64,000 nucleotides of DNA, from positions 3,752,001-3,816,000 of the forward strand of contig NZ_CP130318.1 in assembly GCF_032268605.1 (NCBI RefSeq). Direction: 5' to 3'. The notes below the pieces were generated by a model. It made no database searches, was not told the origin of the DNA, and saw only the letters and a list, made by a program, of their open reading frames with translations. Each line of letters begins with the position of its first letter. Position 1 is the stretch's first letter. The position numbers and the translations under genes are program-made. Below, one piece after another: positions 6,796-13,257 of the stretch. The DNA comes from Paenibacillus aurantius (GTDB taxonomy: Bacteria; Bacillota; Bacilli; Paenibacillales; NBRC-103111).

Positions 6796-8151
6796 TCAGC
6801 TTGCGGCGTGGACATCGCTCGCCCGCAGCGTCTCGATCTTCTCCTCGCCGCCGCTCTCTCCGTTGATATAAATCTTGTAGGAGGTGCCGTTGATCCGCCC
6901 AAGGAACTGGTGGCAGAGCACTTCCTCATTCAGCTCGTTCTTGATCAAGGCTTGATCGTGAGCGAGCACCTCGAACTTAGGGTTAAGTTCCTTCTTCGCC
7001 TTCTCCATCGACACAGCCATCTTGCCGAGCTTCCGGTCCTTGTGTTCCAGGACGTAGTCAGTTGCCTGCATGTCGATCACTTCTCCGTTATCGAGGGCTA
7101 CGTTTACCGTAAGCTTCTCCGGGTAGACGATGACGTCGTCCTGAACGCGGGCAAACGTTAGCGAGGCCACGTTGTTGGCTTCGTCGTAGGCCACGGGAGT
7201 GAAGTTCGGCAGCTTGTGGTGGTCGAGAAATTCCTGAGCGGCGTCGCGGGCTCCGCGCACATCAAGCGTCTTAGATGCGACCGGACGGGAATGCGTGTAG
7301 AACAGCACTTCTCCGCCCTTCTTCGCTACGTCCATCGACATCTCATCCTGCGTGCCGGGCTTAACGGTAGACAGCGTGTAGGTATTGTAATCCGTTCCTT
7401 TGCCGTTTTCGGTTGCGTGGATGACGGAAATATCGGGCAGTCCGAAAAATTGGGCGGCTTTCTGCTTGGCCTGATCCATCGTAATCTCCGCCCCTGGCAG
7501 CCGGTTCAGGTTCCGGTTCCGGGCCGTATCGGTAACCGACGGACCCCAGTTCATCGCGGTATAGCCTTCCACTTTCTTGTCTATCGTCTTGATGCCGTCG
7601 ATAATGGCATTGTCCGTGTTTTCCTTCTGGGAGGCAAGAGCCGTTTCCACATCCATCCACCGGAGGTTTTTGGCCAGAATGTGGGTCTGCATTTTCTTAA
7701 GCTCGGCATTGATTTCCTTGGACCGCTCGTACAAGGTATTCAAATTGGCCTTTTCCGTTTCGGACATGGGGCTTGTCGAGAGATCCCTTACCGAGGTGTG
7801 ATACGTGAACTTGGCAATTTGGTCGAGAAAAGCTTGCGTTTTGCTGAAAGGAACGAGGGCCAGCGGAAGCTGTCCAATGTCGTTCTGGGCTTCGCTCGTC
7901 ATTCTCCACATATTTACCAGTTCCTTGCGGTAAAAATTCTGGGAGGAGGCATTCACGGCAACGGTATTTCCTAGTTCGCTGTGGAGCTTATCCATGTGAA
8001 ACGAAAGATCATGGAAAGCCCGCTGGTACTGATTCTCAGCTTTGATCAGTACCGTGTTCTTCTCCTTGTTTTCCTGGTAGCCCCACACCACGGACCCGAT
8101 CAGGAACAAGGCCGTAATGGGAAACAAGATGGCGCTTAGTCTTTTGTACAT
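6796..8151 (-). CDS. ypeB: Germination protein YpeB
   Basis: Spore membrane protein needed for localisation and stability of the cortex-lytic enzyme SleB. The 451-residue product has one N-terminal membrane anchor (residues 6-24), a helical region and two or three PepSY-like repeats in the C-terminal half, for example the segment around ITMDQAKQKAAQFFG. The length equals that of B. subtilis YpeB. CAGAAAGGAG precedes the ATG. In B. subtilis ypeB follows sleB in one operon; here the gene upstream is a small Cys-rich protein with its own terminator, and sleB is absent from the window. Confidence 0.93.
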   Translation of the reverse strand: MYKRLSAILFPITALFLIGSVVWGYQENKEKNTVLIKAENQYQRAFHDLSFHMDKLHSELGNTVAVNASSQNFYRKELVNMWRMTSEAQNDIGQLPLALVPFSKTQAFLDQIAKFTYHTSVRDLSTSPMSETEKANLNTLYERSKEINAELKKMQTHILAKNLRWMDVETALASQKENTDNAIIDGIKTIDKKVEGYTAMNWGPSVTDTARNRNLNRLPGAEITMDQAKQKAAQFFGLPDISVIHATENGKGTDYNTYTLSTVKPGTQDEMSMDVAKKGGEVLFYTHSRPVASKTLDVRGARDAAQEFLDHHKLPNFTPVAYDEANNVASLTFARVQDDVIVYPEKLTVNVALDNGEVIDMQATDYVLEHKDRKLGKMAVSMEKAKKELNPKFEVLAHDQALIKNELNEEVLCHQFLGRINGTSYKIYINGESGGEEKIETLRASDVHAAS

Positions 8152-8321
8152 GATTCCTTCTCCTTTCTGGCATGACAGGCCGGGAACCGTCCTGTGGTCG
8201 TGCAGTCTTAAGCAGCATGCCTTTATTGTTCTTTATGCGCAGAAGGATTATGCAGGCAGCCCCCAAAATGGGAGGACTGCCGTCCTTCCCCCGCCGGGAG
8301 GGCCATCCGTCCGGACACAGC

Positions 8322-8350
8322 AAAAAAGAGGCTTGTCACCAAGCCTCTTT
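8322..8350 (-). terminator. Terminator after the 51-residue Cys-rich gene
   Basis: Eleven-base perfect stem AAAGAGGCTTG / CAAGCCTCTTT (8325-8335 and 8340-8350) with a 4-base loop and a T-run on the minus strand. The 170 bases between it and ypeB must hold the ypeB promoter; no clear consensus was recognised there. Confidence 0.88.
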
Positions 8351-8360
8351 CCCTTGAATC

Positions 8361-8516
8361 TTATTCCAGGACATCGATGTCCAGGTCGTGCTCGTTGTCG
8401 CACAGGCACCGCTTGAAGCCCGTATCGAGCTTGCCTTTGCCGTAGCTGCCCCGGAGAACGAACCGCTCTCCGCATTGCTTGCAGTAAATCCTTACCTTAA
8501 CTCTGGGGGATGACAT
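8361..8516 (-). CDS. Small Cys-rich (zinc-ribbon-like) protein
   Basis: A 51-residue protein not seen with ordinary length cut-offs. It contains CKQC near residue 12 and CLC near residue 38, a pattern that could bind one zinc ion, and an acidic C-terminus ending DLDIDVLE. ATG at 8516 has a strong CGGAGGTTATAAA upstream and the gene ends just before a good terminator, so it is a genuine transcription unit between prsW and ypeB. I do not recognise the family and assign no function. Confidence 0.75.
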   Translation of the reverse strand: MSSPRVKVRIYCKQCGERFVLRGSYGKGKLDTGFKRCLCDNEHDLDIDVLE

Positions 8517-8558
8517 TTTATAACCTCCGTCCGCCTGATCCTGTTACCAGTATACCCA

Positions 8559-9254
8559 TCAGGTGGGGAGTTTAACCTCGTCTTCGCTATAAACAGCCCT
8601 AAGAGGCGAGCGGGAATTCGCGTGGTTCACTTTCCACAGAGAGCGTGCCCAGAGGAAGACCATAAGCGGAACGATAAGCCATATCCAATACCGCTTAAGC
8701 TCGATCAGAATATAGTCGTAAAGCCCGTGGTAGAAAACGGGAAAGGCCAGGGATACGGCAAGCAGGCCCAGCGGCCGGCCCGTGTGAAACTTGGCTTTGC
8801 CCATATAGAAGCCCATCACCACACCGAAGAGGGCGTGACCCGAAACCGGAAGAAAGGCCCGGAAGAGCAGCTGGGAGAAGGACTTGTAATCGAGCAGCGA
8901 ATAGATAACATTCTCCACCGTGGCAAAACCTAGAGAAACCGCCACGGCATAAACGATCCCGTCATAAGGCTCGTCGAATTCCACATGCTTGTAGATCAGA
9001 AAGTACAAAAGGAACCACTTGAAGAACTCTTCCACTCCCGCTGAATACACAAACGAGAACAAAAAGGGATTTTCCCCGAATGCCAGGACGACCGCCCTTT
9101 GCAGAACCATGACCGGAAAGACGACCAAAGCCCCGGCCAGGAACATCCGGATGACCATGGAGATCGGCTCGGGGGCATACCGGTCCTTCAAATAAAAATA
9201 AGCGAGCAGCGCCGCCCCGGGGGCAACCGCAGCCGCCAAAACGGAAATGATCAT
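8559..9254 (-). CDS. prsW: Intramembrane protease PrsW
   Basis: Membrane metalloprotease-like enzyme that cleaves the anti-sigma factor RsiW at site 1 in B. subtilis, releasing sigma-W in response to envelope stress. The 231-residue product has about seven membrane spans, the EEFFKW motif near residue 72, and conserved His residues in SGHALFG and FYHGLYD. The start chosen is ATG at 9254 on family length (B. subtilis about 218); the ribosome site there (AAAGGG) is weak, and an in-frame ATG at 9320 cannot be excluded. Neighbours ypeB and the 51-residue gene are co-oriented. Confidence 0.88.
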   Translation of the reverse strand: MIISVLAAAVAPGAALLAYFYLKDRYAPEPISMVIRMFLAGALVVFPVMVLQRAVVLAFGENPFLFSFVYSAGVEEFFKWFLLYFLIYKHVEFDEPYDGIVYAVAVSLGFATVENVIYSLLDYKSFSQLLFRAFLPVSGHALFGVVMGFYMGKAKFHTGRPLGLLAVSLAFPVFYHGLYDYILIELKRYWIWLIVPLMVFLWARSLWKVNHANSRSPLRAVYSEDEVKLPT

Positions 9255-9378
9255 AAGGCTATCCAACCCTTTGCGGCTAATGATACTTCCAGTATACCCT
9301 TTTTGCAGCCGGCTGGCCATACTTCCTGCAGGGCCTTATCCGCAAAAGGAAGCGCTGCTCTTCTATTGCTTAACGATG

Positions 9379-10878
9379 TCAGGCAAATACGGCCTTGTCC
9401 TCCTGGAAGGTTACCGTGACTTCCCCCAGGCCTCCATGCCGGTTCTTGGTGAGCTTCAGCCGGAGGAAGGAGCCCGGGTTCCCCGAGTTGACCGCCGGAT
9501 CGGATTCCATGAGCAGAATCCCGTCCGCCGTCGCCTGAATGCTGCCCATGAGATGAAGATCGGAATGATCAACCGAAACCGCTGTAATGATCGGCGTGTT
9601 CCATTCCCGCGCCCACTGCTTCAGACGGTAGATGATATATTCCTCGGCATTTTCTTCCTCGCCATCCCGCGCCGCGAATACCAGGCGGTGGAAGTGATCG
9701 AGAAACAGGACGGGCGGCTTACCGGCCTGAACGGCGATTTTCTCGATAAAGGCACAGATTTCATCAGGGGTTGTTTGCATGCTGCATTCGAATGTCCACT
9801 GCATCCGGCTCATCTCCGTAAAGCTCCGGTTGGCCGCTTCGATTTCTTCCGGATCGAGCGATCCGTCCATGACCTCCTGAGGGGCTTTGCCTAGGAACCG
9901 GGCGACGCTTCTTGCCCATAACTCGAAGGGAGTCAAATCCCAGGTCACATAAACGACTGGCTGCCCTCCCATGGAGATGTGATCCGCCATCTGCTTCATA
10001 AGGGTACTCTTGCCGATGTTGGGCTGTCCGGCGAGCATATACAAGCCGTTGACGAACCCGCCGTTAAGCAGATCGTCTAGGAGGGAGATGCCCGACGGGG
10101 CCTTCGCTTCCGGCTCCTGATGCCGCTTGATATACTCCTCGTTAAACACGGTCAAATATTTAAGGTCGGAGGAGATGGGGGCCTTGATGGTATCCTCGAT
10201 CGTTTTCTTTAGAATTTCCCGGAAGAGCTCGAGCGGCCGCTCCCTTTTGACAAAAAGATCGTTGATGGTACGGATCTTCTCCGGAAGATGGACGGTGAAC
10301 AGTTCCTTCGCTTGCTCCTTAAGGATGCTTTCAATACGCACGCTCTCCCTGCGGCCCGTTTCGTCGTTGGCCAGGCAGATGAACACGCGTTTGCCCGCAA
10401 ACTTCTCGCTGAAGGACTCCTTAAACAAGAGCGTATTCGGCATGCATACGGCCGGCAGGTCCACCTGGGTTAACGTAAGCACATCCAGAATGTCAGAGCA
10501 GAGAATGACTTCCTCGGAATCCTTCAGCACCTGCTCGTTATAAAGAAATTCGTCCACCCCGTAAAGCGATTTGTAGAGGGGTTCTCTCTGGTCAAAGGAA
10601 CGCCCGACGAGGTCGACGACGGTCCCCTTGGCATCGGTTATCGGAACGATGATCCGGTCCTCGAAATACTCCGCCAGGCTGTTTTCCCTTATGTAGAAGC
10701 CGATTTTACCCGATTCGAAGCCCAACCGGAACTTATCGATCGTTTCCTGACGGATTCCCTTGTTCTCCAGATAGTAGAAGGCTTCCCGGTTCAAATTCTT
10801 GTGGTAGTAGGTGACCAGTTCTTCCAGATCATATTTGTTATCCTCCGCCATCTCGTGGATTCGTTCCATGTTTGGCAT
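9379..10878 (-). CDS. Primase-helicase-like fusion with degenerate TOPRIM domain
   Basis: A 499-residue two-part protein. Residues 14-100 resemble the N-terminal part of the DnaG catalytic core (YYLENKGI, RIIVPITD, PLYKSL). Residues 115-225 follow the TOPRIM fold, but the catalytic Glu of the EGxxDV motif is replaced (CSDILDV) and the first Asp of DxDxAG is Ala (ANDETG). There is no N-terminal zinc-binding domain. Residues 245-499 are a DnaB/Twinkle-type RecA helicase domain with Walker A GQPNIGKST, Walker B VLFLDH and a C-terminal KNRHGG arginine-finger motif. CGGAGGGAGAAGT precedes the start. No phage or plasmid genes lie nearby. The helicase may work; primer synthesis is doubtful. The biological role is unknown to me. 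Confidence 0.75.
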   Translation of the reverse strand: MPNMERIHEMAEDNKYDLEELVTYYHKNLNREAFYYLENKGIRQETIDKFRLGFESGKIGFYIRENSLAEYFEDRIIVPITDAKGTVVDLVGRSFDQREPLYKSLYGVDEFLYNEQVLKDSEEVILCSDILDVLTLTQVDLPAVCMPNTLLFKESFSEKFAGKRVFICLANDETGRRESVRIESILKEQAKELFTVHLPEKIRTINDLFVKRERPLELFREILKKTIEDTIKAPISSDLKYLTVFNEEYIKRHQEPEAKAPSGISLLDDLLNGGFVNGLYMLAGQPNIGKSTLMKQMADHISMGGQPVVYVTWDLTPFELWARSVARFLGKAPQEVMDGSLDPEEIEAANRSFTEMSRMQWTFECSMQTTPDEICAFIEKIAVQAGKPPVLFLDHFHRLVFAARDGEEENAEEYIIYRLKQWAREWNTPIITAVSVDHSDLHLMGSIQATADGILLMESDPAVNSGNPGSFLRLKLTKNRHGGLGEVTVTFQEDKAVFA

Positions 10879-10917
10879 ACTTCTCCCTCCGTTTAACAGA
10901 TTCTTAATTTATATTTA

Positions 10918-10963
10918 AACAAAAAGCATCCTCCAAAAACGTTTCGTTTTGGAAAGATGCTTT
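10918..10963 (-). terminator. Terminator after mecA
   Basis: Long hairpin with outer arms AAAGCATC (10923-10930) and GATGCTTT (10956-10963), an inner CCAAAA/TTTTGG stem and a T-rich tail on the minus strand. Confidence 0.8.
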
Positions 10964-10988
10964 AAGGGCGGCCGGCAGCGGCCGATAT

Positions 10989-11594
10989 TCAGGATTGAAA
11001 ATGAGTGCATAGGACAGGCACAGCGTTCTCGGCAATGACAACTTTTCCGTATTCTTCCAGAACTGCCGGAGTAACGGACGTAGCTTCCCCGAACTCGGAC
11101 AGGACGGCGATTTGAGCCTGGTAGCGGCTGTCGCTTTCCTCCAAATCCCCGGGATCGAGAACCAGGATCCAACGGTCCTTATAGGAGTATAAGACTCCCC
11201 CGTCGGTGAGGAGCGGCTGAATCACCTTGGCCATCCGGAGCAAATCCTCGAAATCGCGGAAGGCGTAAGAGATGACATCCGTCTGTTCGAGCGTAACTTC
11301 CATTTCATACACATCTTCATCTTCATCTATAGCTTCGTCCTGCCTGCTGTTCATTTTGCCGCGGGTCACGATCACAACCATCCCCTGGGCCGGCAGGGCG
11401 AATACTTCGACGGCGAGAGGACCGGTAGCATCGAATCCTAACTCCGAGTATGCCTGTTCCATCATTTCACTGAATAGCTCATGGACTTTAGGAATTTCGC
11501 GCCACATGTCTTCCTTCTGGATGCCTCTTTCCGTCAAGTCGTCAAACGTTAGGAAAATCCTTATTTTGTCCGTGCTTAAACGCTCAATTTTCAT
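10989..11594 (-). CDS. mecA: Adaptor protein MecA
   Basis: Cytoplasmic adaptor that hands substrates (ComK, Spo0A, ComS-regulated targets) to the ClpCP protease. The 201-residue product begins MKIERLSTDKIRIFLTFDDL, the characteristic MecA N-terminal domain, has an acidic linker around residues 85-97 (DEAIDEDEDVYEME), and a C-terminal ClpC-binding domain with the segment YAFRDFEDLLRMA. AAGGAGGATCCTGT precedes the start. A promoter lies about 170 bases upstream, so the leader is rather long. It is monocistronic. Confidence 0.93.
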   Translation of the reverse strand: MKIERLSTDKIRIFLTFDDLTERGIQKEDMWREIPKVHELFSEMMEQAYSELGFDATGPLAVEVFALPAQGMVVIVTRGKMNSRQDEAIDEDEDVYEMEVTLEQTDVISYAFRDFEDLLRMAKVIQPLLTDGGVLYSYKDRWILVLDPGDLEESDSRYQAQIAVLSEFGEATSVTPAVLEEYGKVVIAENAVPVLCTHFQS

Positions 11595-11755
11595 ACAGGA
11601 TCCTCCTTAAAGCTTCTCTGGGGACGGCCCGAAGAGAAAGGTCACGGAACCCGAGAAACTCGTTAAAATGAAAGGCTGCTGCGTTTACTACAGATTATGA
11701 ATGCGGCGGGGAATGGTGAGACCATCCCTCTAATTCCTTGCCGGTTCTTCCTTTT

Positions 11756-11784
11756 AGTATACCACGAGGGGACCTTTTTGAAAA
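11756..11784 (-). promoter_or_regulatory. Candidate promoter of mecA
   Basis: Minus strand TTTTCA (11779-11784), 17 bp, TATACT (11756-11761), implying a leader of about 150 bases before mecA. The -35 is poor; the -10 is good. Nothing else recognisable lies in the 286-base gap apart from this and the preceding terminator. Confidence 0.4.
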
Positions 11785-11830
11785 ATGATGTTGGCCCTTT
11801 TCTCCCCTTATGGTTATTTACACAAAAAAA

Positions 11831-11869
11831 TGAAAAATAACACAACTCCTGTTGGGAATTGTGTTATTT
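11831..11869 (-). terminator. Terminator after the 111-residue membrane protein gene
   Basis: Eleven-base perfect outer stem AAATAACACAA / TTGTGTTATTT (11835-11845, 11859-11869) with T-rich sequence following on the minus strand. Confidence 0.85.
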
Positions 11870-11880
11870 GACGGATAACT

Positions 11881-12216
11881 TTACCGGACCTGAGACGGGG
11901 AATAGGCAGACTTCTGATGATTATCCGCCAGGATGGCATTAACCTCGGCTTTGACTCCCGCATCCTGGTTCGCGAATTGGCTAACCTCGTTCAGGCCGGA
12001 TTGGCCGTACGGGTAGTTCATCGCGGAATGAGACGCGCTCTGGTTTTTGGATTCCATACGATCGGCCACGGCCGACTTCGCGTTGTTGAACATTTTGCCA
12101 AGCGATTGGCCGGCACTCGTCATGGTGGACATAACCATGGGACGTCTGTTGCCCTTGGTCAGATAGATGGCCGCCGCAGCGCCGGCGATTCCCCCGAGCC
12201 AGAAGCTTAAACGCAT
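11881..12216 (-). CDS. Small N-terminally anchored protein, unknown
   Basis: A 111-residue protein beginning MRLSFWLGGIAGAAAAIYL, a single hydrophobic anchor rich in Gly and Ala, then a basic KGNRR stretch and a polar, Ser/Asn/Gln-rich remainder without Cys. AAGGAGGAAACTTT precedes ATG at 12216, which was preferred to an in-frame ATG 39 bases upstream that lacks a ribosome site. It has its own terminator. The shape recalls YtxH-type small membrane proteins of Bacillales, but no diagnostic motif is present, so the family is left open. Confidence 0.65.
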   Translation of the reverse strand: MRLSFWLGGIAGAAAAIYLTKGNRRPMVMSTMTSAGQSLGKMFNNAKSAVADRMESKNQSASHSAMNYPYGQSGLNEVSQFANQDAGVKAEVNAILADNHQKSAYSPSQVR

Positions 12217-12393
12217 AAAGTTTCCTCCTTCCTGTAAGGGATACATAAGTATCATTAGCTAACGCAAAGAACCTATTCCCGAGAAAATCAGGAAACAGAG
12301 GAAGGAAACCCGGGGAGGGATATGGTACAATAAATCCCGAATCCTGCCAGACGCAGATCCGAACTATATGGAGATAAGGAGATTACCCTACCC

Positions 12394-13257
12394 ATGAAAA
12401 GAACCTTCGCCGCCATCACCCTTATGTCTCTCCTTCTGGCAGCTTGCGGAAGCGAAAGCCCATCCGTCAACGGGGAAAGCCCTTCCCCTTCGGCCAGCGG
12501 AGCCCCTGCACCTACGGTGTCAACGTCACCCAGTCCGTCTCCTTCCCCTTCCTTGTCGCCGAGCCCTTCTCCTTCTCCGTCTCCTTCTCCAGTTCCGACG
12601 GAGGCGCCAAAGGCTTACAAGATGAACAAAAATTACGACATGATCCCGATCGACCCGGCCGGCAACAAAAAGGTCGTCCTCCTAACCTTTGATGACGGTC
12701 CGAAGGAAAAAGGCATGATCGACGGGCTTATCAACACTCTGGACAAGCATAAAGCCAAAGCCATCTTCTTCGTTAACGGCTACCGCATCAAAGAGCATCC
12801 CGAGCTTCTGAAGCTCATTCATGACCGCGGCCAAGTCATCGGCAATCATTCCTATGATCATATCAGCCTGCGCAAAGAAACGAACGACAAGGTGGATTAT
12901 CAGATTGGCGAAGTGCAAAAGCAGGTCAAAGAAGTTACAGGGACCACCCCCGTTTTCTTCCGTCCTCCCTTTGGAGAAGGAAGCGACTATGTAAGGGAGA
13001 AGGCCAAGAAGGAAAACCTCCTCTACATGACCTGGTCGAACGGTTCCCTGGATTGGGATTTGCCGAAGAACAGCACCGACAAGCCTCAGGCGGTGATCGA
13101 CAATGTCATGAAGCAGCTGCACCCGGGCTCCAATATTCTTATGCACGAGCTGGCCTGGACCGTCGAAACGCTTGATAATCTTCTAACCCAGCTGGAAGCA
13201 AAAGGGTATTCCTTTGTGGATCCACGTTCCATCGATACGCAGCAGATTCCTCAGTAA
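12394..13257 (+). CDS. Polysaccharide deacetylase family lipoprotein
   Basis: Probable extracytoplasmic carbohydrate esterase (CE4, NodB domain) that removes acetyl groups from peptidoglycan or another glycan. The 287-residue product has a lipoprotein signal with lipobox LLAAC (Cys18), a low-complexity Ser-Pro linker at about residues 28-68, and a NodB domain with TFDDGP near residue 103 (Asp pair), HSYDH (zinc His pair) near residue 150 and RPPFGEG near residue 190, followed by WSNGSLDWD and HE near the end. The metal and catalytic residues are present, so it is likely active. It is alone on the plus strand with a strong terminator. Confidence 0.9.
   Translation: MKRTFAAITLMSLLLAACGSESPSVNGESPSPSASGAPAPTVSTSPSPSPSPSLSPSPSPSPSPSPVPTEAPKAYKMNKNYDMIPIDPAGNKKVVLLTFDDGPKEKGMIDGLINTLDKHKAKAIFFVNGYRIKEHPELLKLIHDRGQVIGNHSYDHISLRKETNDKVDYQIGEVQKQVKEVTGTTPVFFRPPFGEGSDYVREKAKKENLLYMTWSNGSLDWDLPKNSTDKPQAVIDNVMKQLHPGSNILMHELAWTVETLDNLLTQLEAKGYSFVDPRSIDTQQIPQ

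Follow-up and report, generated by a model that had tools for sequence, protein, structure and literature searches.

The window, that is the whole stretch of 64,000 nucleotides that was analysed, carries on its minus strand a gene, here designated Q, that is flanked by prsW and mecA; ypeB and a PilZ gene lie further out (Table 1). The opposite (plus) frame of the same interval is interrupted by stops. The first-pass annotation had described the product as a primase-helicase fusion of 499 amino acids devoid of a zinc-binding domain and had placed it between these two neighbours, and both points were borne out: Pfam identified a DNAG_N domain (E 3e-10, above its cut-off) and a DnaB_C domain (E 1e-22, residues 261-498), assigned prsW and mecA on either side, and at E ≤ 1 listed no zinc-binding family (CHC2-type or zinc-finger), the protein beginning directly at the RNA-polymerase domain (RPD). 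Toprim_2, in turn, remained under its cut-off (E 0.014), so the profile search recovered the helicase and DNAG_N parts of the proposed architecture, whereas the TOPRIM part was matched at sub-threshold level. No Lon-type family was listed by Pfam either. Among NCBIfam models, both DnaG and DnaB ones matched, every listed one far under its cut-off, and the sms model scored 27.1 bits against a cut-off of 403; the matches in PHROGs were phage primase/helicase families. The host genome, a single contig of 6.3 Mb, encodes elsewhere a full DnaB (395 bits to DnaB_C), a 611-amino-acid DnaG with intact catalytic acids, and a protein that we take, by eye, to be RadA-like.

Table 1. Features of the Q locus (positions in the window; residues refer to the Q protein)
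Feature	Position	Strand	Basis
ypeB, sporulation protein, conserved downstream neighbour	6796..8151	-	Pfam YPEB domains
prsW, conserved downstream neighbour	8559..9320	-	Pfam PrsW-protease, E 7e-33
CDS of putative pseudo-primase/helicase Q	9379..10878	-	ORF, 499 aa; Pfam; relatives
DnaB_C / SF4 motor domain	9382..10113	-	residues 256-499; Pfam; DnaB Z 29.3
Arginine-finger-like motif KNRHG	9433..9447	-	residues 478-482; R480 in 53/55
H3/L2 region	9523..9594	-	residues 429-452; H3 motif apparently missing, loop L2 apparently shorter
Walker B VLFLDH	9694..9711	-	residues 390-395; D394 in 55/55
D314, SF4 catalytic Glu position (H1a)	9937..9939	-	D 47, E 4, Q 3, G 1 of 55
Walker A GQPNIGKS	10006..10029	-	residues 284-291; GK in 55/55
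Linker, mostly helical	10114..10242	-	residues 213-255; predicted secondary structure
TOPRIM fold	10243..10524	-	residues 119-212, limits set by eye; weak Toprim_2, alignment to own DnaG, fold match
A170-N171-D172, DxD position	10363..10371	-	Asp at 170 in 0/55, at 172 in 55/55
S128 codon, TOPRIM catalytic Glu position (lost)	10495..10497	-	Glu in 0/55 members
RNA-polymerase-domain N-terminal part	10525..10836	-	residues 15-118; DNAG_N match 65-100; fold match 5guj
Hairpin and T run between mecA and Q	10921..10960 (ends approximate)	-	terminator-like by eye
mecA, conserved upstream neighbour	10989..11594	-	Pfam MecA, E 5e-41; synteny

An AlphaFold2 model of Q, built from a 29-row alignment, reached a pLDDT of 85 and a pTM of 0.53. 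In a full-length Foldseek search of the PDB the top matches were human Twinkle (7t8b) and T7 gp4 (5ikn), with TM-scores of 0.37-0.51, low values that we put down to the predicted domain orientation. Compared by domain, the model matched DnaB (4esv, Z 29.3 over 238 residues), the RPD of Bacillus subtilis DnaG (5guj, Z 22.2 over 237 residues, model residues 9-254) and, with its motor part, RadA folds (8rxc, Z 23.8; 5lkm, Z 23.2). Much of the fold score is explained by the DnaB_C part alone.

The interval between mecA and Q contains a hairpin followed by a T run (AAGCAT..CAAAAC..GTTTTTG..ATGCTTTTT). Of 75 upstream regions, 44 have a similar pattern 18-90 bases ahead of the Q start, and similar hairpins were seen by eye behind mecA in many genomes lacking Q (L169-L196). 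The structure reads as a mecA terminator, and Q may be expressed by read-through or from a promoter that lies in the hairpin or ahead of it. A consensus scan of positions 9300-12000 gave one promoter-like and two terminator-like sites, which were not above shuffled sequences, and did not list this hairpin as a terminator. Within 8000-12500 the sole Rfam match was a sub-threshold hit to Corio-PBP just upstream of ypeB (8307-8382, minus strand; 28 bits against a gathering threshold of 63.5, E 0.02), which is likely due to chance.

Distribution of the Q family and its chromosomal slot

A search of 58 other genomes detected full-length relatives of Q in 10. Larger, mutually overlapping draws were then searched. 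At E ≤ 1e-40, 392 genomes of the order yielded 51 carriers (counting this genome and a broken copy from the same species) and 398 genomes of the class yielded 20 (counting this genome); at E ≤ 1e-35, 398 genomes of the phylum yielded 3 (again counting this genome). Of the order-level matches, the best 30 were fetched as loci. The class we take to be Bacilli, from the named Paenibacillus records and standard taxonomy. The family is therefore patchy (51/392 in the order, 20/398 in the class), and many relatives manage without it. The named carriers comprise 15 Paenibacillus records, of which one has the broken copy, together with a single Bacillales MAG, and the closest relatives found are bacterial. 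After merging of identical proteins, 55 distinct members from the class were used for residue counts; left out were two same-species copies (L046 and G208) and L050 of Prevotella, which consists of the helicase part only.

Apart from G208, the matches are full-length and free of inner stops among the rows listed. In G208 Q is split into three pieces, as it is in L046 (CP106741), where mecA, prsW and the PilZ gene are split as well; this looks like sequencing error. In Paenibacillus sp. CC-CFT747 the locus is 99% identical and its Q copy is broken by frameshifts.

The position of the gene is mostly kept. The typical order at the slot is mecA-X-[gudB]-prsW-ypeB, the gudB label being assigned by eye; a gene on the opposite strand is presumably an asparaginase, judging from its start. 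Among 31 fetched loci, mecA lies at most two ORFs upstream of Q in 23, spread across seven family codes, and in 22 of these it is followed by at least one of gudB, prsW and ypeB; none of the four genes is present at five of the 31. At the loci of the named records, which share genomes with this set, mecA precedes and ypeB follows Q in 16/16 and prsW is found in 15/16. In 28 of 28 relatives without Q, chosen by hand, mecA is followed within about 370 bases by gudB or prsW as the next gene tested. Most carriers thus share the slot and all 28 non-carriers checked cleanly lack the gene there, so that in the majority of lineages a single position either has Q or does not.

Mobile relatives are distant. 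Matches in tblastn searches came from 525 phage and 291 plasmid records, of which one and nine, respectively, covered at least 80% of Q; these ten share 21-25% identity with Q over 83-93% of its length. A pattern-based scan that applied the 29-row alignment to 2.9 million viral contigs returned 25 loci, none of them full-length, the widest spanning residues 93-456 at 24% identity; more distant viral relatives may be missed there, because the scan used two peptide patterns. Thus, no close relative of Q on a mobile element was found among the viral contigs and the phage and plasmid records, and the idea that this copy came from a phage or plasmid is rejected in view of the remoteness of the mobile matches (21-25%) and the lack of a full-length viral locus. 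That Q is the decaying remnant of a mobile element (phage or plasmid) once integrated here, or a product of faulty assembly, is accordingly a highly improbable reading: plasmid and phage proteins of equal domain order exist and two same-species assemblies carry broken copies, but the family occupies one locus across family codes, its dN/dS is low (see below), its matches are full-length as described, and no close viral relative was found. The suggestion of the first-pass annotation that the gene is vertically kept agrees with the mostly fixed chromosomal locus, the missing close mobile relatives and the purifying selection acting on the TOPRIM part; the relatives are mostly chromosomal at the mecA slot and by no means confined to mobile elements.

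The roles in repair, competence or spore DNA handling that were proposed for Q are guesses. Spo0A was found in 24 of 24 carriers tested and, for comparison, in 168 members of a 200-genome sample of the class, a weak link to sporulation that is confounded by ancestry. A LexA-type consensus pattern (at most two mismatches) was matched once, in L014 with two mismatches, in 75 upstream regions (55 distinct).

The primase-like domain

Alignment of Q with DnaG of the same genome (FEGYMDT ... YDGDQAG) places S128 in the column of the TOPRIM catalytic glutamate and A170 in that of the first aspartate of the DxD motif, while D132 and D172 are retained. Glu-bearing relatives and the host DnaG both indicate that the Glu column is that of residue 128 and not the adjoining conserved cysteine (C127). 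The replacement of both acids, noted in the first-pass annotation for this one protein, proved to be a property of the whole family: the Glu column contains N (16), G (15), R (11), S (9), H (2), Q (1) and K (1), and the first-Asp column G (42), P (10), S (2) and A (1). The triad formed by the Glu and the DxD motif binds divalent metals in the TOPRIM domain of T7 primase (PMC5517523). At the sequence level, a dead primase centre with loss of priming is well supported.

D132, N171 and D172 are each present in 55/55 members and an acid, E or D, occupies position 173 in all 55, so the TOPRIM pocket is not decaying freely. Within the RPD, R93 is kept in 49/55 members and K103 in 53/55, the remaining two having Arg. 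Values of dN/dS for the TOPRIM part were 0.04-0.15 (six of ten pairs computable), similar to those for the helicase part (0.04-0.10, seven pairs), the remaining pairs having saturated dS; the primase-like domain is under purifying selection and is maintained. The invariant D132, N171 and D172, together with the acid at 173, could form a rebuilt metal site through which Q still primes, and in seven of the 55 members, Q of this genome among them, column 129 beside the lost Glu contains Asp. Such an acid, shifted by one position, is a feature of few members and not family-wide, both the Glu and the first Asp are missing in all 55, no zinc finger is present and the cell has an ordinary DnaG, all of which make continued priming very unlikely.

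The motor domain

The first-pass annotation regarded the helicase motifs as intact. This stands for Walker A, Walker B and the arginine-finger motif K-x-R-x-G (K478 in 52/55, R480 in 53/55 and G482 in 55/55 members), but not for the motor centre, in which the catalytic Glu is D314, H3 appears to be missing and the L2-bearing segment has 24 amino acids. The catalytic Glu corresponds to E343 of T7 gp4 and E325 of fish Twinkle, of which E325Q was used as a catalysis-defective subunit (PMC9723800). It is present in all nine outsiders counted (seven mobile relatives and the chromosomal L111 and L112, described below) and in the RadA-like protein of the host; members retaining it are L011, L087, L088 and L097. 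The H3 pattern S-x-N-R occurs in 7/7 mobile relatives counted, and the host DnaB has SQLSR at this place; an H3-like regular expression matched 1 of the 55 members. The K/RESG pattern of L2 was likewise found in 7/7 mobile relatives counted and in 1 of the 55 members. Both single matches are stray by eye, and the alignment of the loop is uncertain. L111 and L112 lack both patterns. The segment 429-452 has a median length of 24 amino acids (22-27) in the members, compared with 33-36 in the host DnaB and the mobile relatives and 25 in the RadA-like protein.

Outside the mecA locus, three members of family code f46 (L095, L096 and L098) have Gln at the motor Glu position and one of f58 (L100) has Gly. 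The finger Arg is missing in L098 and L100, and the finger Lys is replaced by Gln in the three f46 members. The motors of L095, L096, L098 and L100 may be fully dead.

A less likely, though by no means negligible, alternative is that both centres are dead or nearly so and Q acts as an NTP-gated scaffold, that is a nucleotide-dependent DNA clamp or platform with no priming and no unwinding. The loss of the TOPRIM acids, the replacement of the motor Glu in 51/55 members and the scarcity of H3 and K/RESG patterns (1/55 each, stray) are consistent with this, but Walker A and Walker B are retained in 55/55, the arginine finger in 53/55 and the motor Glu itself in 4/55. Since Asp sometimes replaces Glu functionally and four of the 55 keep Glu, the motor may be active. 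A short L2, moreover, does not show that unwinding is lost, because the RadA-like protein is equally short and the helicase activity of RadA is established (PMC5512693).

RadA also suggests a specific role. It is the DnaB-type helicase of D-loop extension (PMC5512693), and Q might act in parallel in homologous recombination or natural transformation. The motor of Q matches the RadA fold, shares the KNR-x-G motif and has an L2 segment of 24 versus 25 amino acids, and the neighbouring mecA is named for competence. We nevertheless consider this role unlikely: the host already has its RadA-like protein, neither a zinc-finger nor a Lon-type family was listed for Q, MecA also serves ClpC as a general adaptor, and mecA keeps its locus without Q in 28/28 non-carriers.

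Acid-keeping relatives and comparison with known primase-helicases

The TOPRIM Glu is present in eight, and the first Asp in all nine, of the nine mobile relatives examined, several of which also have zinc-finger-like Cys pairs by eye. A protein of a Parabacteroides plasmid annotated as 'bifunctional DNA primase/helicase' (PARABp; L106:1060-3132) has Gly in place of the TOPRIM Glu and keeps DxD, possibly a second, separate acid loss. Two chromosomal proteins from other classes of the phylum, L111 (genome G774) and L112 (G770), match the family over its full length (448 and 440 bits). Like Q, they show no zinc finger and lack the H3 and K/RESG patterns; they differ from it in having intact TOPRIM acids (C-E-G with D-N-D or D-S-D) and an intact motor Glu, and in lying off the mecA locus, next to neighbours without a phage look by eye. 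Each of these lineages rests on one draft genome (94% and 78% complete, respectively), which was the sole genome of its class searched.

In a maximum-likelihood tree of 54 rows, the 45 acid-less rows form one clade (support 100/98) and the seven mobile rows a second (100/100); L111 and L112 fall between the two. A second tree, from which the long rows FECALph, SEBAp, L100 and L014 and the motif columns were also excluded, again united the 43 acid-less rows left (100/100); in it L111 and L112 did not group together. Ten near-identical rows, PARABp and GORDphage were omitted from both trees, the latter two also being absent from the motif counts for members and mobile relatives (hence n=7 mobile), and both trees drew a long-branch warning from the tree tool. 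Since the acid-less rows form one clade and the relatives outside it (L111, L112 and 8/9 mobile proteins) keep the acids, the loss looks single and old, which is the simplest reading; its direction rests on the mobile proteins as outgroup.

It is quite conceivable, if a little short of probable, that these relatives are living intermediates of a conversion from (i) a zinc-finger plasmid or phage primase-helicase, through (ii) a zinc-less chromosomal form with acids (L111, L112), to (iii) the Bacilli form, devoid of the TOPRIM acids and mostly of the motor Glu, located at the mecA locus and turned into a DNA ring that is gated by nucleotide and has acquired a new function in the cell, the same change as in animal Twinkle.

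Taking these data together, we find it fairly probable that this chromosomally encoded protein is an SF4 ring ATPase of the Twinkle type, in which a structural pseudo-primase domain is joined to a weakened or altered motor, and that it acts as an accessory DNA-remodelling ring. The low full-length TM-scores, the pTM of 0.53 and the patchy distribution weigh against this reading, as does the possibility that the motor is active. Its N-terminal RPD/TOPRIM part would make no primers and would be kept as a structural, DNA-holding platform; the DnaB-type domain would retain nucleotide binding and assemble with the arginine finger reaching across the subunit interface. Because the Glu is mostly Asp and H3/L2 appear changed, ATP turnover would be expected to be slow or gated, and DNA to be gripped differently. 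With an ordinary DnaG and DnaB in the same genome, Q would most likely serve as an accessory ring, neither primase nor fork helicase.

Several known systems share parts of this organization. Metazoan Twinkle has the same domain order (RPD-TOPRIM-SF4), no functional zinc finger and a non-priming primase-like domain; it has lost priming (PMC7231222; PMC3610141), and its NTD is still required for long products (PMC7231222). Q differs in being encoded on a bacterial chromosome, in a cell that already has DnaB, in a motor whose Glu is mostly Asp and whose H3 is apparently lost, and in lacking the TOPRIM Glu and first Asp, whereas the Twinkle NTD has motifs II-VI (PMC7231222). T7 gp4 and the phage and plasmid primase-helicases (pSMQ-316, pLRI05, pSTERM02 and contig MT839351) have the order RPD-TOPRIM-DnaB_C in common with Q, but mostly keep the TOPRIM acids, S-x-N-R and K/RESG, and Q, unlike them, is chromosomal. 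In gp4, a primase-domain mutation harms helicase activity and DNA binding, an effect not seen when the protein lacks its zinc-binding domain (PMC9198812); the precedent is therefore weak for Q, which lacks that domain. DnaG shares the RPD and TOPRIM fold, whereas Q has neither the catalytic acids nor the zinc finger and carries a motor in place of the helicase-binding domain. DnaB shares the RecA-like motor, Walker A and B and the arginine finger; Q lacks its N-domain, has Asp for Glu and apparently changed H3 and L2, and scores far under the listed DnaB model cut-offs. RadA/Sms resembles Q in the KNR-x-G motif, the short L2 segment (24 vs. 25 amino acids) and the motor fold, and differs in that Q has no listed zinc-finger (C4) or Lon-type family, while the RadA-like protein of the host keeps the Glu.

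No paper on the Q family was found in the open-licence PMC full text. The parts of Q are of known kinds; what is new is their combination, in which a primase-helicase of bacterial chromosomes has lost the acids throughout its family and has an altered motor, a mostly fixed locus and acid-keeping relatives. In spore-formers, Q is a conserved gene that NCBIfam profiles match to DnaB-type helicase and DNA primase models, each listed one under its cut-off, yet key residues of both centres are replaced. The family offers a bacterial counterpart to the puzzle of the dead primase domain kept on animal Twinkle, one in which the dead domain is strongly constrained and relatives with and without the acids can be compared.
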